NCBI RefSeq assembly: GCF_937616625.2
Contig: NC_065575.1
Span: 7,013,501-7,077,500, forward strand
Length of the DNA stretch: 64,000 nt
From: Mercurialis annua
Lineage: Eukaryota > Streptophyta > Magnoliopsida > Malpighiales > Euphorbiaceae
Direction: 5' to 3'
In this document: piece by piece, positions 6,001 to 55,012 of the stretch
Position numbering within the stretch: position 1 is the stretch's first letter
Layout of the letters: each line of letters starts with the position of its first letter
Position numbers and translations under genes: made by a program
The notes under the pieces: model-generated
What the model saw: only the letters and a program-made list of their open reading frames with translations
What the model was told of the DNA's origin: nothing
Databases searched by the model: none

Positions 6001-7068
6001 AATTTCTGATAACACAATTACTCTGACTTCGTCTTATTTTTCTTTAGAGTTGCATTTTTGATTTTTGTTCTCTTTTCTTTATTTTCTCTTGATGTCACGA
6101 CTCTCTTAAGGAAGTTGGAAGTTGTCTCTTTTCTAATTCTGATTAGTTCATAACTTCATATATATCAAGTGAAGCCAGCAAGGTTGACATATTTCAGCAC
6201 TATCGGTTGCATAGTGCTGTTTGTTATTATTAGTAGGCTTAATCATCCAAACATACCCTCTCTACTTTTTTCTTTTATACCACAAACTTTCAAAATTATC
6301 AATTTTACCCCATTTTCCAATTTTCAATTTCTGTTGCACCCATTTATTAAATTGGAGTTTTTTACTTGAAAAATGTTTAAATACTTGTAGTCTCAATTTT
6401 TTTAGTACTTTTTAAAATATTAAGGGCTGATTTGGACTACATGATAAATATGAAGGACATATTTGAAACTTTTTCAGAGTGAAAAAATCTGTAAAATTGA
6501 CAATTGTAAAAGTTTGGGAAATAAACGAAAAAAATTGAAAATATGAGGCAGTTTGAATGATTAGGCCTTAATAATATTATTGTTGTTTTCCTCTTTTTGG
6601 AGAGAACAAGAGGGCATGCCCTGGAACAGTGAGAAAGTTGCTCATATGGTTCAAAATGAAAGGGAAAGGCTGCATACAAATGTGCCTACCCAGAAACAGT
6701 TGTACCCCAATACACATCAAGTATACATGTCACATTTAAAATCAAAAAGTTCACACTTCTCCAATATTTTGTAGGAATTTTTCGTATTGTTGATCTCTCT
6801 CTCTCAAAGACAGGAAAATAGATCTCTGCTTTTTATTATTTATTATATTTTTTTATCAATTGGATAGCATTTGGTTCAACACGCATGCTGCATGAAATTG
6901 CGTTTAAATGTTGTCGACTGGCAGAGTTTGAACAATTTTTGAGGTCATATTGCATTCGCATTTTCGACTTTATGGTTATGTTATGTTTTCTGTTTCTGCA
7001 GAGAGGAGATATCTCGCAGGAAGTCTATCTATAGAAAGGAGAGCAAGATGGTAGAAAGTAGCCACTAA
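60..7068 (+). CDS. CLC-f: CLC-f type chloride channel/anion transporter, nine exons
   Basis: Exons by GT-AG reading: 60-476, 617-1019, 2497-2691, 3244-3698, 3822-3926, 4795-5025, 5134-5343, 5695-5927, 7002-7068. Phases agree throughout and give 771 aa, close to the usual plant CLC-f length. The N-terminus is Asp/Asn-rich and cytosolic, followed by a multi-span CLC core. The motif GPEGP at about 232-236 contains the gating-glutamate position, and GGLYAP at about 447-452 matches the third CLC selectivity motif. Two CBS domains follow, at about 603-672 and 695-750. Plant CLC-e/f proteins form the branch nearest bacterial CLCs; Arabidopsis CLC-f is reported on Golgi-type endomembranes. Transport mode (channel or exchanger) cannot be read from sequence. 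The ATG at 60 is only 59 nt into the window, so an upstream UTR is cut. The last exon codes a short basic tail that fits the family's C-terminus. Confidence 0.93.
3006..3077. repeat. 36-bp tandem duplication in CLC-f intron 3
   Basis: Two adjacent copies of a 36-bp unit starting TAATATTTTACT and ending in GCTTTCCTC, with one base differing. They sit in the intron between exons 3 and 4. Probably a simple slippage duplication with no visible effect on splicing. Confidence 0.8.
4307..4555. mobile_element. Mutator-type MITE in CLC-f intron 5
   Basis: A 249-bp foldback element. The left end reads GGGTTAAAGTC and the right end ACATTACTCC; the arms pair imperfectly, around CACCAACTTT and AAGTTGGTG. 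It is flanked by a perfect 9-bp duplication TTTTCTTTT (4298-4306 and 4556-4564). The 9-bp duplication is the Mutator-superfamily signature. It has no coding capacity. Its arms resemble the elements at 53603 and 54476, so the three appear to be one family. Confidence 0.75.
4591..4672. repeat. Short tandem repeat in CLC-f intron 5
   Basis: Three imperfect copies of a unit of about 22-34 bp built on AAAAATCTGTTCTTTTGAC. They lie immediately after the intronic MITE and about 120 bp before exon 6. Confidence 0.7.
6236..6567. mobile_element. Mutator-type MITE in CLC-f last intron
   Basis: A 332-bp foldback element with ends GGCTTAATCATCCAAAC and, on the other strand, GGCCTAATCATTCAAAC. The flanks TTATTAGTA (6227-6235) and TTAATAATA (6568-6576) agree at 7 of 9 positions, as expected for an aged 9-bp duplication. 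The interior is AT-rich and noncoding. The insertion accounts for much of the last intron's length. Confidence 0.65.
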
Positions 7069-7455
7069 TATAGTAATGAAAGTACTCGTCGGATTCCAAG
7101 TTTGTTTGGACCTGCTCTCGGGAAAGGCAGGTTAAAGGTGAGAGATCATGAATTTAAATGCCGACTTCATCACACAAGTAGATCTGCATATTTTTTGATG
7201 GCCAGTTATATTATTATTATACATCTCTTCTTTTGAGGGTTTAGATATGAAAATACCCTTCTGATGGGTTTTGCAAACTGTGCAAAGATCGGCCTAGAAA
7301 TTTGCATTTTGTACATGTAAATTTTGTAGTTACATTTCGATGTTAGTGGAAAAAGAAAGAAAAGAAGAGAAAATACATGTTGATAGTTGAATGAATTCAA
7401 GCCAGAGTCCTTTTCCTTTTCCTTTTTTGGGGTTATCTTTTTTTTTTATATATAA

Positions 7456-7486
7456 CTAGTACGGAACCCTCGCGTTGCTTCGGGTG
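7456..7486 (-). mobile_element. Possible Helitron 3' terminus
   Basis: Read on the minus strand, a GC-rich imperfect hairpin (ACCCGAAGCAACGCGAGGGT) is followed after a few bases by CTAG and then T, matching the Helitron rule of a subterminal hairpin plus CTRR inserted between A and T. It stands out sharply from the AT-rich surroundings. I could not find the matching 5' TC end or any Rep/helicase coding, so this is at most a non-autonomous or truncated copy. Confidence 0.35.
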
Positions 7487-9599
7487 AAATATTTTTTTTT
7501 ATTTATAGACAACTTGAACATTATAATAATTAGTTATGCAGTTTTCGAATAACAAAAACACAAATATTTTTAATAAAACTATTAGAATTGCAATTAAAAT
7601 TTGTAACATTATGCTGATGCAAATGTTTAACTCGCATTGTTTTCATTACAATATTAAAAAGTACTTCAAACTAAATGCTACTTTCAAAGGAAATTCATCA
7701 TCAGTAAATTAAAAAGATTGACAGATTTCATAAAATATTGCAAAAAGAAGTCGACTACAATTGAAAAACTGTCAAAGTTACAAAGAAATTGGACTCGTAG
7801 CGTATTTCTTACTAATTCTTGAACTTTTAAATAGATAAAATTGCGCCATTATAAAAGCCAAACTCGATTCTCGTTTCTTTCTGTCTCTAAATTTTAAGGA
7901 AATAATGCTTTTATTCTAATCACTTGTAACTCAGAAAATGGTTTAGGCAAATGAAATGAAATTTGTAATAAAAAAAGAAATTAATAAATCTCCTAATTAT
8001 GTAGTAAAAAAATAAAAATGCGTTATTAATTCTCATATTTATAATCTGTAATTAGTAAATATTGCAAGAGCTAATAAAGATAGAACCAAAAATATAAAAT
8101 AACCTAAAAAGAAATAAAATTCTTTTAATGACAGATTAAACATACTAATGAATAATAAAATTATAATTATAATAATTAAAACTAAAATTGATTTCATTTT
8201 GAATTTTTTTAAAGACTATAATTTTTTTATAAAAAAAATGAAAAAAAATTGTGCAATGGAAACAAATAATAAAACATATAGCCGTTTTATGATCGTTATA
8301 TAGCCGTTTATTATTTTGAATTTTGTCAGTTTGTTAGATAAAAAAACAGTGAAGTTAATTGTAGAAAATCAAAATATAAATATTATTTATTTTATTCTAA
8401 TAAAAAAATTATTAAAAAATGACTTAAATTAATAAGTGAAATAATCAGTAATTTATTATGTGAAAAATACAAAAATTATTTTTTAAAATAATGTCATCTG
8501 CCAAGATAATTTTTAGTGTATTATTTTAGTGTAAAATTTACTTCCACCTAATATCTAGTGATGAAAATAATACAGGAGCAAAATATTTTATATAAATCGT
8601 TATAAGAGCTTTGATTATTAAACATAATTAAATATTTTAATTTGAATAAAAATATTTAACCAACAATGTAAATTAAACCTAGCAAGAGAACATTTTTAGC
8701 AAAAAAATAACAGTCTTTTTCTAACATTTATATGGAAAGGCAATTATGAAAAAACTCAAATTTAATAACTATATTTAAAACCAAATTAGAAAGATTTTGA
8801 AAAAAAAGAGAATTGGGGCCAATTTTATACAAATCCAAACCTAATAATCAATATTATTTTATAAATATTACGCTCAAAAAATATTTTCTATAATAACCAT
8901 ACACTGTTTAATATTCAAAAGACACACTCAAACATAACTTAAAACATTTATTTTTAAATATATTTAATTTTAAATTTTATCTAGTAATTTATTAGTTCTA
9001 TTTAATATAAAATTTGATAATATATTGTTCCTGCATCTATATTGATGAGTATTATGTAGTATGATGTTATTTATCATTTTTTTTATTTTCTTTTATGTTA
9101 TAAGATGAGTTTCTCACCTAACTGATAGTCCATGACGTTTTGAGTGACATTGCTTTACCACAGCGTTAAATTATTGCATGGTGGCAGTTTGTAAAATAGT
9201 AATGAAGTAAAAGTCCTTTAAGGACTAAATGACTTGCAAATTAACTTTAAAATCTAATATCTTCCTATTCACAGCAATAAAATAGTGAAGGACTAAAGGG
9301 GTACTATAGATCTTAGTGGCTGTTTGGTAAATAGAAAAGCAAAGACAATGATTATATAAAGACAAACTTGTAAAAAATCGTAAATTTATATTGGTTTTTT
9401 AGAAATTAAGTATCAAGGAGCTGGGCATTTGTATGATAAATAGCTGGAAATTACTAAAAGGCCAACATAAATATAAAGTAAGAAGAGAAATTAAAAGGAC
9501 TTAAAAGGGAAGTGAAATTACTGTACAATGTACAGTGTTTTTCACTTCTCTTTTATATGTTTTATATAGATTTGGGGTTATCTTGTACTGTTCTACTAT

Positions 9600-12995: not shown

Positions 12996-15900
12996 TTACA
13001 TGTGCGGTCCAAGCGGCAGCCTATTCATGATTTGCTGATAAACTGATGGATTATTGGATAGATTGAGACTTGGTTCAGACATAGGCTCCACCTTAGGTTC
13101 TCCTTTGGGCAACATATACCCCATTTCATTCATGGGACGTTGGTGGTGTGCTAAGTAGGGGTGAACCGACATAACCGGCATCTTCGGTTGGCCCGGACCC
13201 AGTCCAGCCATTGCCAGATTAGCTAGCCCTGGTGGATGCATTCCAAATGAGAAGTTAGGGATATGACCCATTTGTTGTCTTCCATGATGGCTGAAGTTTC
13301 CGTACGCTGCAGACCTATCGAACCTTGACATACCGTTATGAACTTGAGATGGCTCTGGTCTATGAAGAACAGCTGCACCGGCTTGTGAGTGAATGGCATT
13401 AGATGCAGAGTTAGCATGGCTGCTGTTGCGTGCAGCCGGAACGTCATGATTGTGTTTTCCCTCGTATGTAGTGATCACTGACTTAAGGTCATGTGATGCC
13501 CTCTCAACATGCTTCCTCACCGTGCAGCCTGCATTAGTGCATTTGTAGTAACTCCTGCAGTAGACCATGCCATAAAGAGTTTTAATTTACAGATATGAAG
13601 AGAATGTTGATTTCTAATGTAATCTATATAGCACGGAAACAATGCAATGGAAAGATGCGGAAAATTATGTTCTTTTTAGAATCATAGGTTATAAATATGG
13701 AGTATCAGAAATTTCTCTAAAAACAAAAGATGAAATACCGAAACATAGGAGTTGATAAGTTTTCGTGTAACAAAGTATGTAACCGACAGGGTTGATGAAA
13801 AATGACGAGATTCCCAATCAATTCATAATTTAAATCACCTGGGATTTGGATTTCCTTTCACAACTTTTTGCCCATATTTGCGCCAGCGATATCCATCGTC
13901 CAGGATATCCACCTCGCTGGTAGTCTGGACCACAACTCTAGGCTCCCGAATAGCTCTTGTAGCTCCTGCAATCTCTGTGGGGTATGTTGTTTCAATCTTC
14001 CTGAGTTGTCAAAAAACGTGTTCAAGTTATTTCACATATAATAATTAAGATACGAGGAAATAGTCGTAAAAACCATCAATAAAATGTAGCAACCTTCTCT
14101 TTGACTCGGATTCATCTCCTTCGCCATCATAACCTACGCTTCCATGTGTGGCGCGATCATCTTCATCTTCATCATTAGAAAAGGTAGATGAGGCATCAAC
14201 AGCATCACCTGCTTCACCGTTAGCAGCATTCTGAGCCTGCACTGCGGAAGATGGATTGCCAAATTCAGGCGCTACAGATGCTGAAGAAGTCACCTCAATG
14301 TTGTCGTGCCTCCAATCGGGTGTCCCAGCAGCATTTTTACTCAGCGCACTTGCCCAAATAGGATCATTTTCTGTTCCGCGCTGTAATCCAGCTTGCTCAG
14401 GGACATCTAGTTGCATATCCACGAGGGGATTTGACGATCCGATGGCTGAACGTCGATTAAGCGTAGGTTTAGGATGGTTGTGGGCCCCCTTGTAGATGAT
14501 CTCTGTTATATGGCCCTCGTGAGAGCGCTCTACTTTCTTCTTAACCAAGCAATTTGGATGCGTGCATTTGTAATAACTCCGCGGGTACTCACTTCCCTTT
14601 ACTTGTTTCTGTCCGTATTTTCTCCAGTTATATCCATCTTCAGATGGTGTACCACCACCGCCACCCGCCACGGAATCTCCACTGGCTCTCTGGTCTCCTA
14701 CTTCATCCTGGTGCTCATCAAGAGGTGGAGAATGTTCGGCACTGCCACCAACATTATCGAAGACCCTCCTATCACTCCTCATAGTCTGGAGACTGTTGTT
14801 CCGATGCTGAGATTGGACTTTGGCTGGTTCTGCACCATGAAGAGAATTCTCTGACTGAACTGAGACTTCAATGCTCGGAAATGATTGCTACATAAGAACA
14901 ATTAAAATTATCTACATGCAGATGGAAAACAACAAATGCTTAACAAATTAATCAATCACCGATTCCTTCCATTTTAAAAGCAACATTCACCTCTGCTCGA
15001 CATTTACGAGGCATGACAGATCATCAGCATTTGAAATATACCGAGTCATGAAGAAAAAGAAAATTAAGCATAGTTGCTAAAGCAAGACTTGAGCAAATAC
15101 TTACTTTGCTTGTTGGAGCGAGGAAAAAACCAGATGCAGAATCTGGAATTGGCTTGAATGCAAAAGAAGAATCATTGATGTCCTCAAAGAAATTTTCTTT
15201 ATTTTTATCAGAAGGTTCAGACATCAACATAGAGCCCTTACTATTACCATTTAGGACAAACGAGAATTTTCCAGTTGTTGGAGATGGCTGTGCCTAAGGA
15301 GTGACAGGTTCAGAAGCAGAATTTAGAACATTGAAGAACAACTAAACAAAGATCAATTTCTGTTTTCAGGGTTTTATTTCTACACTATGGTAATCACCTT
15401 AAATATAACGAAAAGGAGCTTAGAGATTCAAGACATGTTATAAGCTTAGAGATGCTTATCCAAAAATAACAACTTTCATTTCAATATTCGTGAAGCTTTT
15501 CCGCATAAGACTTTTTGAGGTTTAGGCATGTAGTTGATTAACAGATCTCAGTTCGAAGAAAATAGATAAAAACTGAAAACCAGAACTATATAAAATGCAG
15601 TAAAAGATCATTAACTAGACACTTCATTCAATAAACGTTTCCCGTTTCAGACATGTGTTGGAAACTTGGGATTTTGGACACGGAACTTCATTTATAACAT
15701 ATGAAATCTTAAAAGAACACTCTTTAGTCCAATTCATGTTTCCCTGTGTCCGCATCCTTGCTACCTAGATGACCTAAAAGTATTTCCAAGCCATCACAGC
15801 CATCATTAACAATCTCACACATTCCATTGGTTATTGATAATGTAGCACAGTTATCAAATAAGTACTTCAAAAGCTAATGGAAAAGGCCAAATGATGCTAA

Positions 15901-26905: not shown

Positions 26906-26914
26906 AAACTCCTA
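26906..26914. repeat. MULE target-site duplication, left copy
   Basis: AAACTCCTA, identical to 36123-36131. The length of 9 bp is the Mutator signature and the perfect match indicates a recent insertion. Confidence 0.95.
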
Positions 26915-27255
26915 GGCTAATAATCACCCACGGACCCTGACTTTAGGGGTACCTTACGCTAAACCCCCTGATAAAAAAAAACGATCAGTAAACCCCCTAT
27001 TCTTTGTGACGGCTGCACGTAAACCCCCTGAGCCCATTTCTCGCCGATATTTTGGCAAAATGATGACGTGGCACGATATATTCACTGACGGCTCTGCAAG
27101 CCACTCTGCATGCATGTCAGACATGTGTAAGAATGTGTAAGGCTGTGTAAGGTTGTGTCGGTTGACTTTTTTCAAAAAAAAAAAAAAAAAAAAATCATTT
27201 TTACCGCTCGGTTAAAAATCACTTTCTCTCTCTAACATTTTTAACTTTTCCCTCT
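26915..27255 (+). repeat. Left terminal inverted repeat of the MULE
   Basis: Starts GGCTAATAATCACCCACGGA. Compared with the right TIR I see one substitution (C at 27101) and a poly-A run of 21 versus 24. It contains three AAACCCCCT motifs (26961, 26990, 27021) spaced 29 and 31 bp apart, a TGACGTGGCA element (27064-27073) of the bZIP-binding type, and about three 10-bp repeats of TGTGTAAGnn (27125-27157). These are candidate transposase-binding and promoter elements, by inference only. Confidence 0.95.
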
Positions 27256-27571
27256 TCTTCTCCCTTAGTTTATTTGATTTTATTTCTGTCCCAAAAAAAA
27301 ACGTCCTTTCTGTTCTTTTCGTGTACCTACTTCGTTTCTTCTTCGCCTTGATCGTTTCTTCGTCGCCTTCTTAGTTTCCTGTTAGGGTTTGGTTTCTTGA
27401 TCGTCTTCTTGGGTTTTCTTCGTTTCTTAGCAACTGGGTATGTAACATTTTATAATTTCTTGAAAATGGAAATTTTTTTGAATTTTTGAAAATGGGTTTG
27501 TGTTTATGTTATTTGGTTCGTGTAATGTATAACTTTAACAGGCTTGTGGTTGGCAGGTGTAAAGGGAAAAA

Positions 27572-30500
27572 ATGGGGAAAAGAAAACGAGAGCGAAGGGA
27601 GCGGGAAAGGCAAAGTGAAAGAGACAAGAGATGGGAAAAAGGGTCAAATAGTCGAGATAACCCTTTACAACTCCATGATACTGATAGTGAAAGCAGTCAA
27701 GAAGTAGTCGAAGGTACGAAACTTGTGTAAATGTTGACCTCATAACCTCTAGGACCACTTATGTTGAACTGGTGTGCTGAAAATGAAGTATGATTTTTGT
27801 GGGTCCATTTGTGATAATATTTCTTTATATGCTTGCTTTTGGTGAAAATTTGGATTTTGTGTTGGCTTTGTGAATACTTTATTGTGGTGTGTTGGTTTTA
27901 TGAATAGTTTATTGTTGGTCTGTTCCTGTTTAAAATTAAATATTGTTGCTGTGTTGGTTGTTTAGGATATAGAGAATTTATTGTCGTTGTTATGTTGGTG
28001 GGCGTATCCAATTGTGCGGTTTGTTGGTTTGCTTTAGAAATGAATGCATTGGTTATTTTCTCTTTTTGCAGTTTCACCAGGAGGGGGCAAATTATTCCAG
28101 ATTAATTTACATCACCATGGGGATCTTGGTGACTTGGCCTATTATGGTGGGGAAGTTCAAAGAAGGATATACCATATTGGTGAGATTGAAATGTCCAACC
28201 TTGACACATGGTGTAGGAGGCTATACGGCGGAAAAGCCATTGTTGATTACCATTGGTGTCCGAAGGGAATCGAATACCGGGATGGGATAAAGGCGATAAA
28301 CCATGAACAAGATTTCAGGGAAATGGCTGTGACAGGATTAAAGGCAGGGTCTGTTGAGGTATACGTAAGGGAGTATTCTGTCAAGGACATTAAAGAGTTA
28401 CATGAAAAGATTAAGCTTGACTTGGAGCCTCCTCCTCTCCCCCCTAGTACTGTTGTTATTGAGGAGCTTGTGGACCCGGAGGCTGGGCCAGGGGTAGAGG
28501 TGAATATACCAGTTCAAGATCAGGGGCCACCTGTGATTTTACCAGAAATTGAGGGGGTTTTGTTGATTGAGTGGCACGGCAACAATGTGCAGGCACCAGT
28601 TATAGATGCATTAGAGCCGGAGGATGCAGTAGCGGGGCTGGAAGAGGGTGTGCAGGCTGCAGTTGTAGATGTGGTGCAAGAGGGGCTGGATGAGGTTCAG
28701 GAGGGGCTGGATGAGGTTCAGGAGGGGCTGGATGAGGCGCAGGAGGGGCTGGCAGAGGGTTTAAATTTAAATGAACATGAAGAAGTGGTTGGGACAGAGA
28801 AAGAGTCTGAGGCCAGATTGGAAGAGGTTACTGAAGAGGGGGAGGTGCCAGAAGGGGGGCCAGATTGTCCCCCTTCAACTCTAGAGAGGATGGCACAGGG
28901 TCTATTTGATCATATGGCTGAGGAGCTAGAGGGCATGGAGGGGCTGTTTGATGACGATGACCAAAATGAGGTTCAAGCAGAGGAACACTCCGGTCAAAGG
29001 GGGAAGAATGAGGGTGAGAAGCCAACTCTTGACGACGTCGAGCTAAATGTCGAAGATTACATCGTCGACCCAGACTACGACATATGGGACGACGATGACG
29101 ATTTGATAACGGAGCTTAGATCGACGGGCCAATATTTTGAAGAGGGACCAGATGCCCAACATGAGGATGATGTAGATGTTGGATCTTCACAGAGATCTGG
29201 TGGGAGACCAAGGGGAGAGAGTCAGGCAGAATTTCGCCCGGGGGGCGTTGATAGAACTATACATCCAGAAGCTGACGAGCAGGAGGAGGAGGTAGACTCG
29301 GACTACATTGCTTCAGATGATAACAACACGGCTTCCGAGTCTGACGGTGACGGTCGGGTGAAGTTCAGGATGTTCAACGAGGAGAAAGAGATGGAAAATC
29401 CAACCTTCAAGAATGGATTGCAATTTGTGAACAGAGAGCAATTCAAGAAAGCATGTAGGCAGTGGGGCATCAAACACAGGTATCAACTGCATTTTCCTGT
29501 CAACGAGAAGACCCGTGTCAGGGCTAAGTGCTTTGACAAGAGTGACAATGTACCTAAGTGTCGGTTTGAAATATTTGCATCCAAGCAAAACATGTCAGAT
29601 CCGGATGATGAAACATTCCTAGTGAAGACCCTGAACTTGGTACACACTTGCCCGAAGAGAAGATCGAATTTCCACATGACCAGTGCCTATCTGGCTGAGA
29701 GTTTCTTGGAGGAGTTTAGGGCCAATCCAGATTACAACCCTGAGCAGTTTGTTGCTAAGATTGCACGGGAGCTGAAGCAGAAGATCAGTGTGCAGACGGC
29801 ACGAAGAGCACGACTCAGGGCTGTAAGAAAATTGGAGGGGGATGAGGATGGGCAGTATGCTAAGTTGTATGACTACCGAAGGGAGGTCCTTCGAACCAAT
29901 CCGGGGAGCACAGTGGATTTTAAAGAGCCTCGAGGAAAGTTTGCGGGTATGTACATGTGCTTGGCTGGAATGAAGAATGCCTTCCGGAATGGGCTGAGGC
30001 AGATCGTTTGTCTGGACGGTTGCTGGTTGAAGGGGAAGTATGGGGGTCAGTTGCTATCTGCAACTGGGATTGACCCCAATGATTGCATGTATCCTCTGGC
30101 TATGGCATGGGTGAAGGTTGAGAATACTGAAAACTGGACGTGGTTTTTGGAGCTATTGAAGGCTGATTTGCATCTGGGCAACAGGACAACCTTCATGTCA
30201 GACAAACAGAAGGTAATTGCTTTCCATAACAGAACATTCATTATATAAGCTGGTAATTGCTTTCCATAGTTGTGCATTTTTATGAGTAAGGTCCATAGTT
30301 GATCATTTAGTAAACGTTAGGGTCCACAGTTGATCATCTGTTAAACGTTAGGGTCCACAGTTGATCATTTGTTAATGTCTTTAACTTGTGCTTCTACAGG
30401 GCCTCATACATGCACTGGACGCGCTTTTTCCACATTCAGAGCACAGGTATTGCTGGAGGCATCTGTGGGCAAATTTCAGAACCACCTTCCACTTGCAACA

Positions 30501-31302
30501 TTTAAAGCCGCTTATATGGAACATTGGGATTGCAACCTACACATCCAAATTGAATGCTGCCATGAAAGTTTTGGAGAATACTCATACGGCGGGCTACAAC
30601 TGGATTGAGGAGAGATCTAGGGAGCATTGGTCCAGGGCACATTTCAGGCCGCAAGTCAAGTGTGACATATTGCTGAACAATTTAGCGGAGGCCTTCAATA
30701 AATATGTACTGACTTCGAGGACGAGACCTATCTTGACGATGTTTGAAATGATTAGGACTCAGCTGATGAGGCGGATCCATGACAAACAGATTTTTGGGAG
30801 CAAGATTAATTCGCGGTTGTGCCCTAAAATTAGGAAAAAACTGGACAAGATAATTGAAGAGGGTTGGAATTACACCGCACACCCTGCCGGCAGTCCTCAA
30901 GTGCAAGTTATAGGTCCCGGAGGTCAGTTCGTGGTAAATTTGGATGAAAGGACTTGCACATGTAGGCGTTGGGACCTCACTGGGATTCCATGCGTTCACG
31001 CATGCCCCTGTATTTATGAGAACAATGAGGTCCCAGAGAACTATGTGGACGACTGCTACACAAAAGCCACCTACCAAAAAGTGTACAGCTATGTTATCAA
31101 CCCTTTGAATGGGGCTGATATGTGGGAAACCGATCCAAATCCATTCCATATCATAGTTCCTCCCTCGCCTGTGCAAACAAAGAAGCGGGGTAGAAAATCG
31201 ACGGTAAGACGAAAGGAAGCGGAAGAGCTAGAGCAGCAACATGAACAGACTGTACAGGAGGCCCATGCAAAGAGGGCAAAGTTAGGACGTAAGGGGCTTT
31301 AG
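27572..31302 (+). CDS. MURA-type transposase with N-terminal PB1-like domain, truncated by in-frame TAG
   Basis: Exons 27572-27713, 28072-30212, 30400-31302; 1061 aa to the TAG at 31300-31302. Exon 1 codes a basic, probably nuclear-targeting start (MGKRKRERRERERQ), then a phase-1 intron. PB1-like domain about 53-150 (NLHHHGD...YYGGEV). Long acidic linker with four copies of VQEGLDE-type heptads (249-276). MuDR-type N-terminal DNA-binding region about 488-598. MULE transposase core: D696 in CLDGCWLKGKYGG, D758 in MSDKQKG, candidate E858 in NNLAEAFNKY. SWIM finger C947, C949, C959, H961. The frame stays open for 130 codons after the TAG to 31695 and codes a CCHC knuckle, so the normal product would be about 1192 aa. 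It cuts and joins DNA at the TIRs in the nucleus. A 5'UTR intron seems likely, ending just before TGGCAG/GTG near 27556. Confidence 0.88.
28674..28757 (+). repeat. 21-bp in-frame tandem repeat in the transposase linker
   Basis: Four copies of a 21-bp unit coding VQEGLDE (last copies AQEGLAE). Units 2 and 3 are identical, so the expansion is recent. It lies in the acidic linker between the PB1-like domain and the DNA-binding region, where length change is probably tolerated. Confidence 0.9.
30291..30377 (+). repeat. 31-bp tandem repeat in transposase intron 2
   Basis: Three copies (the last partial) of a unit beginning GTCCACAGTTGATCAT and ending GTTAGG. The unit resembles the outermost bases of the MULE TIR (GGGTCCGTGGGTGATTATTA), so it may be a terminal-like motif copied into the intron. 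Confidence 0.85.
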
Positions 31303-31695
31303 AAGGTTAAATGCAGTGAATGTAACCGATTTGGCCACAACAAACGGACGTGCAAAAAGGACAATGACCAAGCTGCATGTGGGGGTGACACTCAGCCAGA
31401 AGCAAGAGCTGCAGGGGATGAAACAGGGGGAGAAGCACCAGATGCAGGGGAGGTTCCAGGTGGGGAGTTTGGAACTGGAGAGCAGGCCCCAACAGGAGAG
31501 TCTGGCGTACACCTAAGTGGAGCCTATTCTGCAACAGAACAAGCCTCGGTTGAACAGCAAGGTGCAGGGGAACCCAGTCATGACACTTCTACACAAGCTG
31601 CTCGAGCTGCTAAGAGAAAAGGAAAGAGGCCTGCTGGTCGAGAAGTCCCTTCGCGATACAGGGACTGTTTGAGGAAACGAACAACGAACAAGTAG
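31303..31695 (+). pseudogene. In-frame C-terminal extension of the transposase after the TAG, with CCHC zinc knuckle
   Basis: Starting directly after the stop at 31300-31302, the same frame is open for 130 codons to TAG at 31693-31695. It begins KVKCSECNRFGHNKRTCKK, a CX2CX4HX4C knuckle that plant MULE transposases normally carry after the SWIM finger, then a Gly/Glu-rich stretch and a basic tail (AAKRKGKRPAGREVP...). Such a long open, conserved segment shows the TAG is a recent nonsense change, or less likely a read-through site. A 14-nt GT-AG segment spans the stop but is far too short to be an intron and would break frame. Confidence 0.8.
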
Positions 31696-31959
31696 TGCAA
31701 CAAAACAGATGGATGTATATTTTGTACCATGTGCTTTTTGTTAAGGAACGTTTTTTGTTTTGGGCAACACATGGATATATTTTACTAGATGCCCCAACTT
31801 TGTTGTGTTTAGAAGCGTACGGTGGTGTATGTGCAAATGTAAATGGTTGGAAATGTTATTCTGAATGGTTTTTATTTGTGTAAATGAAGTTCGTTTATGA
31901 TTGTCTTTAATTGTGCCAGATTATGGTTGTCTTTTATTGTCATACGCTTGAGTGAAAGT

Positions 31960-32060
31960 ATAATATCTCCTACGGCCCTCCATGTATTAGCAATAATCAA
32001 TCATGGACCCTTTTGTTTTCTTATATGATCAATCATGGACCCTAATATTTCATTATTATA
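31960..32060. other. Spacer between transposase and GRF gene with terminal-like motifs
   Basis: Contains two copies of a motif close to the MULE end: AATAATCAATCATGGACCC (31992-32010) and TGATCAATCATGGACCC just after (32026-32042), in the orientation of the left TIR. No coding content. It probably contains the transposase 3' region and the promoter of the next gene. Confidence 0.55.
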
Positions 32061-32198
32061 ACAGACCTAGCCCCTATGAAAAACAACCCAATCATCCTTG
32101 GCCCACAGTGTGGCCCATAAATATCCGCCTACAACTCATCCAGCCCCACTCATCCAGTGTTTAACGCTTACAACTCAACTCAAAAATTACAACCAAAA

Positions 32199-32830
32199 AT
32201 GGAAGGAGTAGCTGCACAAGTGGTTTGCGATTGCGGAATCCCATGTCGCCTAGACATTTCTTCAACGGATAGGAACCCCACTCGAAGATTTTACGCTTGT
32301 TCAAAGCGAACTGTAAGTAATTCATGTGCTTTACAAAAAAATTCAAACTGTAAGTAATTTACATTAATTTTTTGACCTTACTTCGCCTTTTATTTTTTCG
32401 AACTAAATTTGTCCAGAATCAGTGTAATTTTTTTGCCTGGCTAGAGAATGACATGCCTTACCAAATGTCGGTGGTCCGAAACTTGAAACTTGACCTCCAT
32501 GTCATGACTGTTGAACTGGAGGAGGCCAAAAGTTTGCTTGCTGCTAAAAAGGACGAGTTCCAGGGATTGAAGGAGTCCCATGAAATGTACATAGACGAAA
32601 ATCAGGGATTGAAGGAGTCCATTGAGATGTATCGCGATGAAAATGGAATCTTGTTTGAGGAAAGCGGTCTACTTTTTATGGAGATAGACATACTGAAGGG
32701 CCAGATCAAGGACATGGAGGTCAAGTGTGCAGACTTGGAGAGGTCAACCAGGAACATGAAGTTTGGTTTTTGTGCTGCTTGTGCAGTTGCAGGATGCAGT
32801 GTAGGCTTGCATTGCATGAGGAAAAATTGA
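32199..32830 (+). CDS. GRF zinc finger plus coiled-coil protein carried by the MULE
   Basis: Two exons, 32199-32312 and 32417-32830, 175 aa. The GRF-type finger spans the intron: CDCG at 10-13, RRFYACSKR, C at 34, then NQCNFFAWLEND, the usual C-C-C-C plus FY and FFxW pattern. Residues about 60-135 form a charged coiled coil containing a repeated QGLKES...MY.DEN block. The C-terminus is a short Cys/Ala-rich hydrophobic stretch (FCAACAVAGCSVGL) before a basic end. GRF fingers bind single-stranded nucleic acid in some nucleases and topoisomerases; short GRF/coiled-coil proteins are abundant in plants and often lie near transposons. The role here is unknown. Same strand as the transposase, about 500 bp downstream, with its own start codon and room for a promoter. 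Confidence 0.75.
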
Positions 32831-33252
32831 ATAATTATTAAATGATGTTGCTTCATTATTATTATGGGTTGTAATGCTACATATTTTAATTAAATAATTT
32901 TTAATTTCAGACAGTGTTTTTTTAATTATGATAGAGCAATTAATTAAATATGCTAGAGTAATTATTAATGATGTTTTACAGCCCAATATCGCTAATTATA
33001 CATACTGACTTGTCTTATCAGCATTAATGTTGTTTAAGGGGCTTCAGAAGAACCCTTTCATTAACCAAAATCGTCATTAATGACATCCACTCACTTGGGA
33101 AACAACACACCGCTTAAGTGAAGAATATGAAAAGACATCTATCCAACTTCTTTAAATATGTAATCATGCTTACTTACTAACACACACAAAGACACTTATC
33201 ATTCATACTTAAAGTGATCCACTTTCGCCTTCATCTTCAAAACAACGCAGCA

Positions 33253-34094
33253 ATGCCTGAAAATAGAGTCCGTTCGTTTGATCTTGAACTCATGGACTGT
33301 GCCGTATGCTGTGAACCTCTACGCCCTCCCATTATTCAGGTTTGACCCCACATCATTTATATATTTATTCACTTTAGGTTATTCTTAATTTTCTAACTTT
33401 TCCTTTTCTTCAGTGTCAGAATGGACATGCAACATGCAACTCCTGCTCTGTAAAGATGGGTAAATGTCATGCTTGCACTTTGCCAATCGGACCGATGCGC
33501 TGTCGGATAATGGAAGCAGTCGTGGAGTCTTTAACGGTTTACTGCCAGAACAGAGTATATGGTTGCCAAGAAAGCTTCAATTACGACGAGAAGACAGATC
33601 ACGAGAAATACTGCTCTTTTATAGAGTGTTCATGCCCGATTCCAGAGTGCAATGTGAAGGGCTCGTCCGAAACCATTTATGCTCACTGCAAAGAGTTGCA
33701 TCAAGATATTCTCACACTATTTAACTTTGGACGTAAATTTGCAGTTTCTGTGGACATGCATGATAGGGGTTTGCTTCTCCAAGAAGAACAATCAGACGTT
33801 GTGTTTGTTCTGAACAACACGAAGTGCTCTTATGGGAATATTATAACAGTGTTTTGTCTCGGCCCATTGTCAAACGGAAGCTGCCCTTATGACATCGAAG
33901 TGAAGTTTGATGAATCGTCAGTGCACAGGTTTCATTCTTCTACCAAGAATTTTCAAGACACCAACAAGTATTACCGTTCATTGACAGGATTCCTTCTTGA
34001 TAGTAGCGACCAAGAGTTTTTTGCTGACGGGTTGATCAAGATGGAAATTTCGGTATATCGATCGTTGGAGCTTGGTTCTGCAGATGATGTTTAA
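33253..34094 (+). CDS. SINA-like RING E3 ubiquitin ligase carried by the MULE
   Basis: Exons 33253-33339 and 33414-34094, 255 aa. All eight C3HC4 RING ligands are present: C16, C19, C30, H34, C37, C40, C47, C50. A SIAH-type zinc-finger region follows (about 60-125, with CQNRVYGC, DHEKYC, CPIPEC, HCKELH), then a TRAF-like substrate-binding domain to the end. This matches the plant SINA-like (SINL) group rather than true SINA. The intron falls just before the third RING cysteine. Family role: homodimeric E3 ligases that mark substrates for the proteasome. No stop or frameshift is seen, so it may be functional. Its presence within the TIRs suggests capture of a host gene with its intron. Alternative: a long-standing element gene. 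Substrate unknown. Confidence 0.85.
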
Positions 34095-34703
34095 CGCTGC
34101 CCTTAGTCAACATGTTTTCTGGTTTTCTGTTGTAATTTGGAATATTCTAGTATAGGTTTTATTTTTTTGCTTGATGAATATTGTAGTATCGTTGACGAAT
34201 ATTATAGTTGTAATTCGTAGTTGTTTTATTTTGGAAATTTGTTTATATAATGGTTGATTGATATATGTTGTATCTTTATGGTTGACTAATTTTCATTATT
34301 GATAGGGGTTAATGTTGTTTTAATAAATTTCAAAAGTGCGTATTTATTGAAGGGTCCACAGATGATCAGTAAGAATACATGAGGGTCCATGGCGGATTAT
34401 AAAATAAAAGTATAGGGTCCATATGTAATTATCAGTTTCATGGAACATGTAGGTCGTTTCAAACGAACCGAACGACGATAACTACAAACTTTACTCAATT
34501 TCAATAACAATAACAACCAATATTAAAAACAAAACAGCAATAACATAAGCAAACAATACATTCCAAGTTTGTAATCAACATTCATTTTGATCTAAAATCC
34601 AAATTGTCACTAATAATATAAAATGCAACATACATATTAACCTAAAAGGTTACAAATGTTGTTTCATATGGCCCAAAAATAGGTCAATCTAGTGTCTCGG
34701 CCT
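34095..34703. other. Convergent spacer between SINA-like and PB1-like genes
   Basis: AT-rich 3' regions of two converging genes. Contains three further GGGTCC...GAT motifs (34352, 34383, 34415), in the orientation of the right TIR end. No reading frame of note. Confidence 0.55.
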
Positions 34704-35551
34704 TCAGTCTGACCCACCAATCTGCTGCTGCTCCTCCGAGGGTTCTTCAACTGCTTCAATTTGCAGCAAATCCAGTGGTTCACCTTTTTCTTGACCTTCA
34801 ATATGCAGGACCTCCACTGGTTCACCGGGACCTTCAATCTGCGGCACCTCCACTGCTTCCACAGGACCTTCAATCTGCAGCACCCCCACCGGTTCAGCCT
34901 CACCAACACCCTGTTGCTCCAATGCATCATCCCCATCTTCAAGTTCTTTCAACTCAAATAATGTGTGTCCAAATACAGGCCTTAGGTTGCACACGTCAAC
35001 ACAGCTTAACTTCCTAACATACACATCAACACTACCATCTTGTGTCCCAGCCAGTGCCATGTCCATGACATGGTCATCATTTTCCATGGGAATTAATTCT
35101 TCAGTATACATGCCAGCCCGCCTCCAATAATACATTAACAATCCCTCAACCTTCAATTCAAGTAACCACTTATCTAGACTATTTAATCCTATATCCTCAA
35201 TATGAAATTTTCTAACAGCCAAATCCTCATTAAAATAACCAAAGTCTTCAAACTGTCCATTGTAGTTCAGAATAATTTCAAAGACCTCAAAAAGACAATC
35301 TTCAGTACAAGCTGCTCAAACCAACAAATAAACAAAGACCAATTTTTAATTAATGAACCAGTGAAAACCAAACCAAAACAACAGGCAATGACGAACAAGA
35401 AATAAAATACCAATAAAATTCAAAAACAATCACCAACGAACCAAACACAACTCAAAAAAAATTTCTTCCGGCGAAAAAAAACACACATACCTTTTCGTTT
35501 CTTCCCTTTTCTGTCTTCTTTTCCCATTTTTTTCATTTCTGTGGATCCCAT
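34704..35551 (-). CDS. PB1-like domain protein with acidic repeats, convergent partner gene of the MULE
   Basis: Minus-strand exons 35551-35491 and 35311-34704, 222 aa. Exon 1 is short and basic (MGSTEMKKMGKEDRKGKKRK), a probable nuclear signal, and ends in phase 1 just as the transposase exon 1 does. Residues about 24-125 align with the transposase PB1-like domain: FHIEDIGLNSLDKWL versus YHIGEIEMSNLDTWC, and GSVDVYVRKLSCVDV versus GSVEVYVREYSVKDI. The rest (160-211) is about four 12-aa acidic repeats built on EVLQIEGP. There is no catalytic domain. It starts just inside the right TIR, so each TIR probably drives one PB1-like gene. A partner or regulator of the transposase through PB1-PB1 contact is a reasonable inference, not shown. 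ATG at 35551 chosen because frame, phase and basic composition match the sister gene. Confidence 0.78.
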
Positions 35552-35778
35552 TTTCTGTTAAAGAACAGAGACCTCGAAAAATATTTAAACGAAGAAAAAC
35601 GAAGAACTGAATAGGGGCGAAATAACACACAAGATGGAAGAGAAGAAGATGAAGACGATGGACGGCGATAAGAGTGCAGGAGTAGTAGACCTAGGGTAAG
35701 GAACGAAAAAAAAAGGAACAAGACGAAGACAGGATGAAATATTTGAAAATATGACAATTAAAGAGAATGAGGGGGAAC

Positions 35779-36122
35779 AGAGGGAAAAGTTAAAAATGTT
35801 AGAGAGAGAAAGTGATTTTTAACCGAGCGGTAAAAATGATTTTTTTTTTTTTTTTTTTTTTTTGAAAAAAGTCAACCGACACAACCTTACACAGCCTTAC
35901 ACATTCTTACACATGTCTGACATGCATGCAGAGTGACTTGCAGAGCCGTCAGTGAATATATCGTGCCACGTCATCATTTTGCCAAAATATCGGCGAGAAA
36001 TGGGCTCAGGGGGTTTACGTGCAGCCGTCACAAAGAATAGGGGGTTTACTGATCGTTTTTTTTTATCAGGGGGTTTAGCGTAAGGTACCCCTAAAGTCAG
36101 GGTCCGTGGGTGATTATTAGCC
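35779..36122 (-). repeat. Right terminal inverted repeat of the MULE
   Basis: Reverse complement of 26915-27255 with one substitution (35936) and a poly-T run of 24 instead of 21. Carries the same motif set. It faces the BRL receptor gene, about 350 bp away. Confidence 0.95.
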
Positions 36123-36131
36123 AAACTCCTA
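36123..36131. repeat. MULE target-site duplication, right copy
   Basis: AAACTCCTA, identical to 26906-26914. Confidence 0.95.
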
Positions 36132-36475: not shown

Positions 36476-39400
36476 TCATGAACTAGATTCTTTCTCTCTG
36501 AATTCATCAATAAATGCATCTTTAAGTGACAAACCGTCTAGGATATCGTTTTCGGAGTCCATCTGAAGCTCTTTGAACATGGCCATTACCTGTACCATGG
36601 TCGGTCTCTTGTAAGGCCTATCGTCGAGGCATTCAAAAGCGATTCTCAGATACTGATGCAATTCAGCATCACAAGATTTCTGCATTGTTAACTCCGGATC
36701 CAGTATCTCGTTGTTTCTCTTTTCTCTATGAAGCTGCTTTGCCCATCCAACAAGGTTATTGTCATCACCAAACACAGATGGGTCTATCGGCTTCTTGCCC
36801 GACAGGAGTTCAAGAAGTATGACACCATAGCTGTAAACGTCGCCTTTTGTTGTGCACCTGAAGCTCTGATAATACTCGGGCGGAACATAACCTGGAGTTC
36901 CTGCGAGTGTACTTACACTGAGATGTGTGTCCAGAGCATTTACCAATCTCGCCATGCCAAAATCAGACACCCGGGCCTCAAAATTTTCATCTAGAAGAAC
37001 ATTGCTGGACTTCATGTCGCGGTGGATAATATGCGGTATGCAGCTGTGATGAAGGAATGCAAGACCTCTCGCTGATCCTATGGCAATCTTCTTTCTTGCT
37101 ACCCAGTCAAGTCCTTTGGATCTGCCATGAAGTACAGACTCTAGACTTCCCCATTTCATGTACTCGTATACAAGCAGCCTCTCGTCTCCAACTTTACAGT
37201 AGCCCAGTAACGGAACCAGATTCCGGTGCTTGATTTTTCCGATAGTTTCCATTTCCGCCATAAATTCTCTGTCTCCTTGACCTGTAACATGAATAAGTTT
37301 CTTAATTGCAACAACGCATCCATCTTTTAGTTGCGCCTTGTAGACCTCTCCAAACCCTCCGGACCCTATCAAGCTGTCAGCACTAAAACCATTGGTTGCC
37401 TCGAGCAGATGGGCAAAGGTCAGCTTACGAAGAGGTTTCTCAAATGTGGCAATGTTAATGCTAAGAGGCTGATGAACACCCGAAAGTTTCCAGCTGCTGC
37501 TTCCTGAAGTCGGAAGGCTTTCGATATACTTCTCTCTCTGTTCCTCCTTTTGCTGAGACTTCTTAACTCGGTATAATGCTAATGTGAGGCCTGATATGCA
37601 CAAGAGGAAAAATGTGATGCCGATGACCATACCTGCTGCTATAGACTGCTTTGTTCCATGATGATAAGAGCTCGGGGGACGGCCCCCTGACCCACAAGGT
37701 GACAATGGTACCCCACAAAGGCCGGAATTGTTTTCATATCTCGATGCTGGAAAAGTAGTAAGCTGACCGCCAGAAGGGATGATACCGGAAAGATTGTTAT
37801 TCGACACATCCATATCACTTAGAAATGAGAGACTCCCTAATGACGACGGGATAAATCCTTCGAGATGATTGTGAGAGAGATCAAGAACTCCAATTGCTTT
37901 CAAACCTCCAAAACTGTCGGGAATAATTCCCGTTAACTTGTTGTGCCCCAAGTTCAGAACCTGCACATAGTTCATCAAACCAAAATTTTCTGGGATGGTT
38001 CCTGATATCGAATTGTAAGAGAGATCAAGGTATATCAAGCTACCATTGCTGGTAAATGTGTAAACAGTCTTGCCAGAATATATTCTGGTTGTTGGACATG
38101 AGTGGACCATTGGGAAATTTTCAAGCCTCTCAGGTCGAATCCCCTCAAATTCAACAAGTCCTCCGGCTCCTCTGCAAGAAGTCCCGCCCTCATTTCTTAC
38201 AAAAGCAAACTGCTTTCCTGACACAATTCCAGGAACTATTAAACCAGTTTGATCTGCAAGCTCAGGTGGTAGCGAGCCAGAAAGGTCATTGCTGTTCAAA
38301 TCAAGCCAGATGAGGCTTCTGCACTTACCAAGCGCGGATGGAATTTTTCCAGAGAGTGAATTGTTACCCATTTGAAGTATAGCTAGGTTATCAAGATTTC
38401 CGATACTATGAGGGATTTCTCCAGTAAGCTGGTTGCTTGAAAGTGAGATCCAAATCATATTGGTGCAACTGCCAAGTGACTGTGGAAGACTACCAGTGAG
38501 GAGATTATTGTTGAGAATCAAAGTCTCAAGATTTCCTCCTTTTGTACAAATGCCTTCTGGAATTTCTCCGGTGAGGTTGTTGGCCCACATAACCATATCA
38601 GAAAGATCCGGCAAGGTCCAAATCTCGGTAGGAATCGGGCCATCCAGATTGTTGAAGCTAAAATCAATTCTCCTTAGGTTTTTGCAGCTTCCAAGCTCTG
38701 AGGGAACCTTCCCTGACAAGTAGTTGTTAGCTAGAAGCAACTTCTGCAGAGCAGACGGGTTTGACGTCAAGCAGAACTCAGAAGGAACATTCCCTGTGAA
38801 GTGATTAGAACTAAGGTCCAGCACTTGAAGCTTAGTACAGTTTGTCAGAGACAAAGGGACAGGACCACTTATGTTGTTGAATGGTGCATACAGAAATTTC
38901 AGATTCTGCATCTTACTGACAACAGTAGTAAGAAAATCTCCTGAAAGCAGATTGTTCCCAAGGTTTAGGCTCTGCAAAGAATAAGAGCATGACAAAAAAC
39001 TCACCGGGAAGCCACCAGTGAGTCTGTTTCCTGATAGATCCAATTCTTGAAGAGTTCCACAGGCCTGTCCTAACTCGGGTGGAATCTCACCGAACAACTG
39101 ATTACCCGCTAACGAAAGCTGCCTCAAATTCCTGAAACTTCCCAACATAGCACCAGGGATCTTTAATTGCAACTCATTACGGGAGAGATCAAGCGTCTCC
39201 AAAACCTGACAGTTGCCCATACTACTAGGAAAAACATTTCCAGAAAGCCTATTCGCCGAAAATCCAAGAAAACTCAGGTTCTTACAGTCACCAAAATCCA
39301 TACTAGAGAAACTACCAGACAAGTTATTATGGGAGAGATCCAGATGCTTGAGAGAAGCTGCAACAAAGTTCAGTGGTATATCCCCAGATAGAGAATTATA

Positions 39401-40123
39401 AGAAAGGTCTAAAACTGACAGATTCTTACAAGATACAGGAGTAACATCAAGTTTTCCTGACAACTTATTATCAGAAATATTGAAGTAATTCAAATTCTGA
39501 CAGCTAGAAAGAGAATGAACTAACAAAGCAGAATCAGAAATAAGATTAACAGAAAGATCAAGCTGCAACAAAGAACCACCAAACTGAAGAACACCACCAG
39601 GAATTGAATTATGAGACAGATTAACAAAAGTCAGATGATTACAAGAAGAAATAAAAGACTTTACTGTAAGAGGGACAGAGATATTGTTAGATGAAAGGTC
39701 AACAGTCTCAAGAACACAAGGAATATTAGAAGATACAGAAAGATCACCAGCAGAGAACAAATTGCCTCTTAAACTAATATGCTTTAAAGATGGCAAAACA
39801 GTCAGGTCAGGAAGGTGGAGACTACCAACTAGGGCAGAGTTGCTGAGATTAAGAGAGGTTACTTGATTATCAAAACAAGTGACACCAAACCAAGAACATG
39901 GAGAAGCTGAATTTGAAGTCCAGTTTGCTAATAAGTTATGTGGATCAGATTGAACAGAGGATTTCTTGAAAGCTAATAGCCTCACAACTTCATCATTGCT
40001 GCTGCTACTCAATTGTCTAGCATGTAATGGTGTAATTAGCAGCAGAAACAATATGTAATAGTAATAACCAAAGCTGAAAGTTCCCATGATCTTGCTGTAC
40101 TTTTCTGATAATACCATCATCAT
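36476..40123 (-). CDS. BRL1: BRI1-like brassinosteroid receptor kinase (BRL1/BRL3 type)
   Basis: A single uninterrupted frame of 1215 aa, as in BRI1 and BRLs, which lack coding introns. Signal peptide near 13-35 (after [11 protein letters not shown]), LRR N-cap with a paired-Cys motif, then about two dozen LRRs of the LxxLxLxxNxLxGxIP type. An island domain at about 627-695 ([11 protein letters not shown]...FEGIRPERL) sits between LRRs; this is the brassinolide-binding feature of BRI1/BRL1/BRL3. A second LRR block and Cys pair ([10 protein letters not shown]) follow, then a membrane span about 828-852. The RD-type Ser/Thr kinase has GSGGFG 920-925, K941, HRD 1034-1036, DFG 1054-1056. Plasma-membrane hormone receptor signalling with BAK1-type co-receptors; BRLs act mainly in vascular tissue in Arabidopsis. 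BRL1 versus BRL3 cannot be decided by eye. A second ATG 12 codons in (MGTF) could be the real start, since it leads straight into the signal peptide. Confidence 0.94.
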
Positions 40124-53923: not shown

Positions 53924-54475
53924 ATAATATAATGATATAAGTTCATCAATTTTTTACTAGTTTCGCTCTGTGCTTTGTACGTAACCCGTAACGTGGTTCG
54001 TCGATATTTATTTTAATTATTCTCATTTAAAATTTATTGTCCAGTTTATTTTAAATTATTTTTGAGCCTTTGGCGAGTCTTTTATAAATTATATTTTCAA
54101 TTATATACCAAATGATATACAAATACATATGCCGTATGCAAAAAAATTATGATTTTTCAATTAATTATTATAATTAAAAGTCGCCCATTTTAAAATATGT
54201 GATCCTAATATAATTAAAACATAGTAAAAAAATCTAATATTATTATTGTTCAGAGATCATTGTGGCATCTCTTTTAAATGATCGTTTTATATGGTAGAAA
54301 ACGAGGATTTGATAATAATATTTACATTTTTATATGTCTATTTTAATAAGTTATTGCAAATTTTAGTTAATTAAGAAAATAAAAAATGAAAAAATGTACA
54401 TAGCTTTGTCACATGGTACAATATATGGACATAATTAAGCTTTATTTTTAACATCTATGATATAATTTTTTAAAA

Positions 54476-54784
54476 AAGTTAATGTCAAAAAAAATCACGA
54501 ACTTTACACGTTTTCTCATTTTAATCACGCAGTTTAAATTTTCTCATTTTCATGCACGAACTAGCACTTTTTCTCAAATTCATGCACGGTGTTGAGGTGA
54601 CACTCATTTATTGGTGTAAAATAACCTCCACCTCAGCGAATTACATCAATGGAGTCATGACACCTCAGCACCGTGCATGAATTTGAGAAAAAGTGATAGT
54701 TTGTGCATGAAAATGAGAAAAATTAAACTGTGTGATTAAAATGAGAAAACATGTAAAATTGGTAAATTTTTATAACATTAACTT
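54476..54784. mobile_element. Mutator-type MITE, well preserved
   Basis: A 309-bp near-palindrome with ends AAGTTAATGT and ACATTAACTT. Arms pair through GTTTTCTCATTTTAATCAC and CTCAAATTCATGCACGGTG. The flanks TTTTTAAAA (54467-54475 and 54785-54793) match perfectly, though an A/T-rich flank leaves one or two bases of doubt in the ends. Confidence 0.75.
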
Positions 54785-55012
54785 TTTTTAAAATAGCCAA
54801 AAACGCTACGTAGAAAAGAGTAATAGTATATTACCCATCTATTTGATACATTTTATTGTTCTATCTGTAGCAATACAAAAAATAAAGGGGTTAAAATTTG
54901 ATTTTGAGCTATACACTTTTGTGGTTGGATCAAATTATAAAAAAGAAAATTATATGGTTATCCTAATTTTTTAACTTTGGATAAACTTAAATAATGATAA
55001 AAAAAATTGATT

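Follow-up and report, generated by a model that had tools for sequence, protein, structure and literature searches.

The question raised by positions 26915-36122 of a 64,000-nucleotide stretch of the genome of Mercurialis annua, a member of the Euphorbiaceae (NC_065575.1, positions 7,013,501 to 7,077,500; hereafter, the window) is whether the four genes found there between transposon ends belong together as the gene set of a transposon lineage and, if so, what the three genes besides the transposase contribute. The segment is a Mutator-like element (MULE) of 9,208 bp with four spliced gene models, for a transposase, a protein with a GRF zinc finger, a predicted SINA-type E3 ubiquitin ligase and an acidic protein denoted here gene 4. 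The evidence presented below makes it probable that M. annua harbors a MULE family whose full-length members share these four genes in the same order, and that the accessory genes are retained.

The element, its family and the wider lineage

The two terminal inverted repeats (TIRs) of the window element differ by 1 substitution and by 3 bases in the length of an A-run, and a 9-bp target site duplication (TSD), AAACTCCTA, is perfect on both sides. An earlier note on this DNA, made from the sequence alone, had described TIRs of about 341 and 344 bp differing by one base and a homopolymer length, a perfect 9-bp duplication and four spliced gene models; all of this is confirmed, the models of the SINA gene and gene 4 being identical to the M. 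annua RefSeq proteins P0001 and P0011, respectively. The assignment to the Mutator-like elements in the same note is borne out by the MULE domain, the SWIM finger, the TIRs and the 9-bp TSD.

A genome search started with the left TIR yields at least 41 matches, a minimum since only the best candidates were scored. The 16 further loci that were fetched comprise 15 TIR-paired copies and L028, of which the fetched stretch includes a single end; counting the window copy, there are at least 16 TIR-paired copies, with the TSD perfect in 14 and carrying one mismatch in 2. The copies are 89% to 99.98% identical to the window copy (in pieces of at least 500 bp), and over 9.2 kb two full-length sisters show 13 and 14 mismatches to it. 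Among the 17 copies, the transposase is open to its natural end in 6, GRF in 11, SINA in 11 and gene 4 in 14, and all four genes are open in 4; several copies are internal deletions with the ends kept, and gene 4 is open most often, even where the transposase is deleted. The earlier note had reasoned that, if no other copy carried the GRF and E3 genes between such TIRs, the set would be a one-off capture; the search of the assembly returns multiple full-length four-gene copies, that is, a family, along with a wider lineage, and the gene set survives. Transposition of the family is suggested indirectly by dispersed near-identical copies with different TSDs. The likeness of TIRs is a weak clock for MULEs; copy-to-copy identity is better evidence of recent movement. 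The recent movement proposed previously fits the sister copies, including pieces that are 99.90-99.98% alike, whereas the likeness of the two TIRs, on which the proposal was based, is a weak foundation.

Protein searches of the genome yield 164 matches for GRF, 151 for gene 4 and 152 for SINA in several identity tiers; 86, 146 and 110 of these, respectively, were sorted by position, the identity bins used for the linkage counts were chosen after the hit lists had been seen, and linkage was counted from the accessory genes outward only. Among the sorted matches, at 75 of the 90 SINA loci with at least 53% identity a GRF gene in the same orientation lies no more than 3 kb upstream, and at 76, gene 4 in the opposite orientation lies no more than 3 kb downstream (both neighbors in 65, neither in 4); a GRF or gene 4 neighbor is found at 0 of the 20 host-type SINA loci below 47% identity. 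From the GRF side, a SINA gene lies within 3 kb downstream of 75 of the 81 loci with at least 40% identity and of 0 of the 5 below 40%. The N-termini of divergent-tier transposases, as detected by the gene 4 search, lie within 12 kb upstream of 44 of the 71 SINA loci at 53-85% identity; the same count for the 19 closest SINA loci is 0 among the matches listed, probably because the N-termini of the family itself scored too low for listing.

Five divergent loci (L029-L033) all show the order transposase, GRF, SINA, gene 4; the L033 transposase is cut down, and the SINA genes of L031 and L032 are frame-broken. Three subfamily elements are fully delimited, namely, A' (L030 together with L034), B1 (L029 with flanks) and B2 (L033 with flanks); each of them has GGCTAATAATCA termini and is flanked by a 9-bp TSD, that of B1 being palindromic and read by eye. 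Across the elements, the inverted repeats span about 340-549 bp, and both the gene order and the GGCTAATAATCA termini are preserved even in the subfamilies with the lowest protein identity, about 45%.

Table 1. Features of the Mutator-like element and its target site (window coordinates)
Feature	Coordinates	Strand	Details
Left TSD copy	26906-26914	none	AAACTCCTA
Left TIR	26915-27255	+	341 bp; terminus GGCTAATAATCACCCACGGACCCT
Transposase gene	27572-31302	+	exons 27572-27713, 28072-30212, 30400-31302
Terminal-motif array	30288-30368	+	3 copies, spacing 31 bp; transposase intron 2
Continuation of the transposase frame past the TAG	31303-31695	+	zinc-knuckle-like motif CSECNRFGHNKRTC and tail; stays open
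Terminal-motif array	31993-32043	-	2 copies at 32-bp spacing; intergenic, transposase to GRF
GRF gene	32199-32830	+	exons 32199-32312, 32417-32830; 175 residues
Predicted SINA-type E3 ligase gene	33253-34094	+	exons 33253-33339, 33414-34094; 255 residues
Terminal-motif array	34351-34432	+	3 copies at 31- and 32-bp spacing; intergenic, SINA to gene 4
Gene 4 (predicted PB1 fold)	34704-35551	-	exon 1 35491-35551, exon 2 34704-35311; 222 residues
Right TIR	35779-36122	-	344 bp
Right TSD copy	36123-36131	none	AAACTCCTA

Several loci of the family show rearrangements. The locus L025-L027 (C2:52949830-52971701) contains a copy that is 99.90-99.98% alike, with an insertion of about 12.7 kb, flanked by a short target duplication, in transposase exon 3. 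The right end of L011 consists of two TIRs in tandem, at the left end of L024 a partial TIR copy lies beside another, and among the left-TIR matches is another pair of TIRs (C54) separated by about 26 kb. Elsewhere in the window, reading frames named by eye resemble a BRI1-like receptor kinase (36476-40123, minus strand, ending about 350 bp from the right TIR), a WRKY transcription factor (12996-14782, minus strand) and a chloride channel (3252-3821); related hairpin-like inverted repeats at 4324-4464 and 54467-54793, 82-88% alike, look like a small family of miniature inverted-repeat transposable elements.

Predicted functions of the four proteins

In a Pfam scan of the window proteins, the transposase, GRF and SINA have matches above the cut-off, and gene 4 has none. 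The transposase consists of an N-terminal domain homologous to gene 4, an acidic linker, the DBD_Tnp_Mut domain, the MULE catalytic domain and a SWIM finger; PF10551 is matched with 68.6 bits against a cut-off of 27.6, and PF03108 and SWIM likewise score above their cut-offs. In the window copy, an in-frame TAG at 31300-31302 interrupts the protein at residue 1061 of about 1192, downstream of the MULE and SWIM matches. This stop occurs in the window copy only: in 11 of the 11 other copies that hold the position, it is a sense codon, and in 5 of the 16 the region is absent. The tail region beyond it is open in 6 of the 17 copies; the Pfam match to a zinc knuckle in the tail is weak (E-value of 0.13, below the cut-off). 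The window copy is therefore structurally complete but has its transposase cut by the private TAG, so that the claim of a complete element in the earlier note is not borne out, and the reading of the window element as a complete autonomous copy is rejected. If the lost tail is essential, the window copy would depend on its sister copies.

Gene 4 is a paralog of the transposase N-terminal domain followed by an acidic repeat tail, and is likely the product of a duplication of that part of the transposase; this replaces the view of it as an unrelated acidic protein. An AlphaFold model built from an alignment of 5 sequences has a whole-model pLDDT of 58 with block means of 74-91 for residues 51-130 (a model made without an alignment, with pLDDT of 36, was not used). 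PB1 structures head both the Foldseek and the VIA lists for this model, the top rows, among PB1 domains such as those of NBR1, PKC iota and Par6, having 4-12% identity to gene 4, and the protein is accordingly predicted to adopt the PB1 (ubiquitin-like) fold. With the Pfam profiles, no PB1 family is detected in gene 4 at E-values up to 5; PF26130 is found on three relatives, as a precomputed accession only. Given the predicted fold of gene 4 and its paralogy with the N-terminus of the transposase, the latter likely has the domain order PB1-MuDR-MULE-SWIM.

The GRF protein contains a GRF zinc finger (above the Pfam cut-off), a middle part that is likely coiled, and a hydrophobic tail with basic residues at the end; the hydropathy of the tail, over 17 residues, is 1.7-2.3 in five relatives. 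The nearest solved relative is NEIL3 (E-value of 7e-7). A second, distant MULE family in the M. annua genome (L047, approximately 4048-8794, and L050) also includes a GRF gene, which is convergent with the transposase; a SINA or gene 4 match is absent within the stretch fetched.

The SINA protein matches Sina_RING with 40.2 bits (cut-off 29.3) and Sina_ZnF with 56 bits (cut-off 32), and all eight zinc ligands of its RING align with those of SIAH1 (9g0l, E-value of 7e-17); the C-terminal part, beyond residue 130, has no Pfam match. The SINA proteins of the elements form one clade (support 97/99) apart from the sampled host SINAs. Phylogenetically, the E3 gene of the elements thus appears to have a single origin in the sample taken and probably derives from one capture of a host gene. 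Among the 10 proteins retrieved with the element SINA gene, 9 carry the plain name 'SINA-like 10', and annotators should be warned of such names. In wheat, the expansion of the SINA family has been attributed to local duplication in a paper whose main text contains no word beginning with 'transpos' (PMC10734943).

Selection, terminal-motif arrays and the role of the accessory genes

The ratio of nonsynonymous to synonymous substitutions (dN/dS) was estimated between subfamilies by NG86 with bootstrap limits; the GRF and SINA models of L031 were left out, L032 has no SINA model, and exon 1 of gene 4 is doubtful in B1 and B2. For SINA, the ratio is 0.27 (0.17-0.39) between A and A', 0.23 (0.14-0.35) between A and B1, and 0.39 (0.26-0.59) between A' and B1; for GRF, 0.25 (0.13-0.42) between A and B1; for gene 4, 0.45 (0.24-0.66) between A and B1 and 0.30 (0.18-0.47) between B1 and D1; and for transposase exon 3, 0.095 (0.05-0.15) between A and A'. 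In these alignments, the values are mostly well below 1 for all four genes, a pattern of change which suggests that the accessory genes help the element to spread.

The subfamilies also appear to exchange sequence. Between A and A', synonymous sites have diverged by about 1.8-2.8 in the transposase, 0.64 in SINA, 0.14 in gene 4 and 0.08 in GRF. Exon 2 of the GRF gene is 99.3% alike in A and A', compared with 48-66% for its intron and the flanking spacers, and the alike tract (32418-32841 of the window against L030, about 425 bp) begins at the exon and ends about 11 bases beyond the stop codon. This looks like a short conversion tract, with subfamilies swapping pieces. In general, exons are more alike between A and A' than introns and spacers, which is weaker evidence of retention than dN/dS because it is partly due to conversion.

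The motif at the extreme ends of the TIRs, AGGGTCC....TGATNAT, recurs within the element in non-coding arrays with a spacing of 31-32 bp, about three helical turns (Table 1). With up to 3 mismatches, 13 matches are observed in the window compared to 2.0 expected, and as many are found in 0 of 100 shuffles; 12 of the 13 are inside the element, where the arrays account for 8, the ends for 2, and intron 1 and coding sequence for 1 each. A' contains 10 matches; the corresponding three intervals, placed by hand, include 7, of which 3 have 3 mismatches. The arrays look like binding sites of an element protein. In VANDAL elements, VANC-binding motifs are located in tandem repeats in non-coding regions (PMC5735166); the arrays described here are alike in layout only.

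These features are compatible with the following scheme. The transposase would bind the TIR ends, and perhaps the internal arrays as well, and mobilize the element through a cut-and-paste reaction. Gene 4 would supply a PB1 protein that pairs with the transposase by PB1-PB1 contact and tunes the assembly of the complex, and the GRF protein could be a partner that binds nucleic acids and is possibly anchored in a membrane. The target of the E3 ligase would be a host protein that restrains the element, most likely one active in silencing or DNA repair; by marking it for degradation, the ligase would provide the element with a counter-defense of its own, much as VANC does in VANDAL. That the ligase is directed at a host restraint factor is quite possible, although short of probable; the weight beyond this and self-regulation (see below) goes to other targets or no function. 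The scheme in its full form, with a captured SINA ligase that destroys a host silencing factor, a stand-alone PB1 copy that scaffolds the transposition complex on the TIR ends and the TIR-like arrays, and, in addition, an extant transposon that has the PB1-bearing transposase architecture proposed for the vanished MUSTANG B ancestor, is tentative and, taken as a whole, rather unlikely to be correct in every part.

Several observations weigh against this scheme. Protein searches, which are of limited reach, found no relative outside M. annua. Among the 17 copies, 13 lack at least one open gene, and single copies therefore seem able to move without all genes in cis. A dN/dS of 1 is allowed for gene 4 between A and A' (0.68, 0.40-1.30), B1 and C1 (0.51, 0.26-1.00) and B2 and C1 (0.59, 0.29-1.16), for GRF between A and A' (0.33, 0.12-1.14), for transposase exon 2 between B2 and C1 (0.87, 0.48-1.73), and for the B1-B2 pairs with their small number of differences; saturation affects many of the transposase pairs. 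B1 and B2, when searched, show no internal copies of their own terminal motif, and the motif test in the window was not blind because the pattern was drawn from repeats already seen there. Finally, the anatomy, the family, the linkage and the dN/dS values can be read from the sequences, whereas cut and paste, the PB1 pairing and the E3 step are what we infer from them, and for the E3 target and the PB1 pairing this is inference pure and simple.

The alternatives differ in what they take the accessory genes to serve. The genes could regulate the element itself, gene 4 capping or poisoning the assembly of the transposase and the ligase degrading the transposase, so that the element would limit its own damage. 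Gene 4 indeed consists of the N-terminal domain of the transposase alone, which is the layout of a dominant-negative partner, and its being the gene most often open, also beside a deleted transposase, is in line with this; nevertheless, on general grounds, self-limitation is hard to maintain by selection in a multi-copy family, and the retention of gene 4 may only reflect ends that must stay because it adjoins the right TIR. Such self-regulation is, on balance, unlikely. Under a neutral view, the element would carry its three accessory genes along as captured cargo, as Pack-MULEs do, with no benefit from them; this view draws on the frequent capture of host genes by MULEs (PMC13317346), on the copies that have lost cargo and yet retain near-identical TIRs and TSDs, and on the dN/dS pairs that allow 1. 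It is improbable given that the genes are intact and spliced, that most of the between-subfamily dN/dS values are well below 1, that a single-clade E3 has been kept through deep divergence and, with less force owing to conversion, that exons of A and A' are more alike than introns and spacers. Pack-MULEs are non-autonomous and carry host fragments only, whereas this family includes a transposase and whole genes, with all four open in some copies.

Domestication, under which the four genes would serve the plant as a host gene cluster and the TIRs would be incidental, could explain why the SINA gene and gene 4 are annotated as ordinary genes in RefSeq, and PB1-bearing MULE transposases have been domesticated before, in MUSTANG B; it is very improbable in view of the dispersed copies with different TSDs and the many decayed copies. 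A composite of nested elements is rejected because gene order and orientation repeat in divergent subfamilies. A one-off capture or nested insertion confined to the window is practically excluded, being refuted by the 16 TIR-paired copies and the lineage-wide gene order, and no point was found in its favor.

Comparison with known elements

In the literature covered, the closest multi-gene MULEs are MuDR, the KIU elements and Abermu. MuDR from maize contains two genes with opposite directions of transcription (PMC9168764) and shares with the present element the MULE transposase domain, the SWIM finger, long TIRs, the 9-bp TSD and a gene in the opposite orientation; it is set apart by gene number, two against four. 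Abermu, from barley and other plants, is a MULE of more than 8 kb with three open reading frames, two in the orientation of the transposase and one reversed (PMC9168764). Its two extra reading frames, compared here by description, have no stated function, in contrast to the SINA-type E3 and the paralog of the transposase N-terminus in M. annua.

The KIU (KAONASHI) elements of Arabidopsis have three genes, one with an Ulp1 domain (PMC13317346). VANDAL and KIU resemble the present lineage in being multi-gene MULEs, but are described as non-TIR MULEs, unlike the elements in M. annua with their long inverted repeats, and where KIU encodes an Ulp1 protein, a ubiquitin ligase is found here; neither the VANC domains DUF1985 and DUF287 nor Ulp1 were found in the four proteins with Pfam at E-values up to 0.1. 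Plant transposons are thus known to carry anti-silencing VANC genes and, in KIU, Ulp1-domain genes, whose exact jobs are partly open. A host-type E3 gene that apparently was taken in once and shows low dN/dS through deep divergence makes counter-defense through the ubiquitin system directly testable. Compared to SINA/SIAH E3 ligases in general, the element protein has the same RING with eight zinc ligands and the Sina zinc finger, but it is carried by a transposon and belongs to a clade apart from the sampled host SINAs.

A survey of MULEs lists PMD, DUF and FAR1 domains as extras, as well as a C3HC4 RING finger in one Phytophthora MULE, and its main text has no word beginning with 'GRF', 'ubiquitin' or 'PB1' (PMC6446971). 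No paper placing a SINA or GRF gene in a MULE was found in a literature search with partial coverage, subscription journals being mostly outside it.

The MUSTANG B (MUGB) genes are domesticated MULE genes in which a PB1 domain, encoded by a 5' exon, accompanies the MuDR DNA-binding, MULE and SWIM domains (PMC3435246). Against this set, the element transposase has DBD_Tnp_Mut, MULE and SWIM matched, PB1 by homology to gene 4 only, and PF00564 unmatched; the likeness is one of domain order only. The MUG genes lack transposon ends, in contrast to the TIR-bounded, multi-copy element with TSDs described here. According to a review, PB1 usually is not associated with transposable elements and was likely gained before the exaptation of the MUGB precursor (PMC8616336). 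A TIR-bounded element that probably has this domain order, deemed unusual for transposons and acquired before the domestication of MUSTANG B, is accordingly of interest (PMC8616336), and the stand-alone paralog of the transposase PB1-like domain is a concrete, testable candidate for a regulator. MULEs as a kind and PB1 in MULE-derived genes, as in MUSTANG B, are known, and what appears to be new is a MULE lineage with this conserved gene set.

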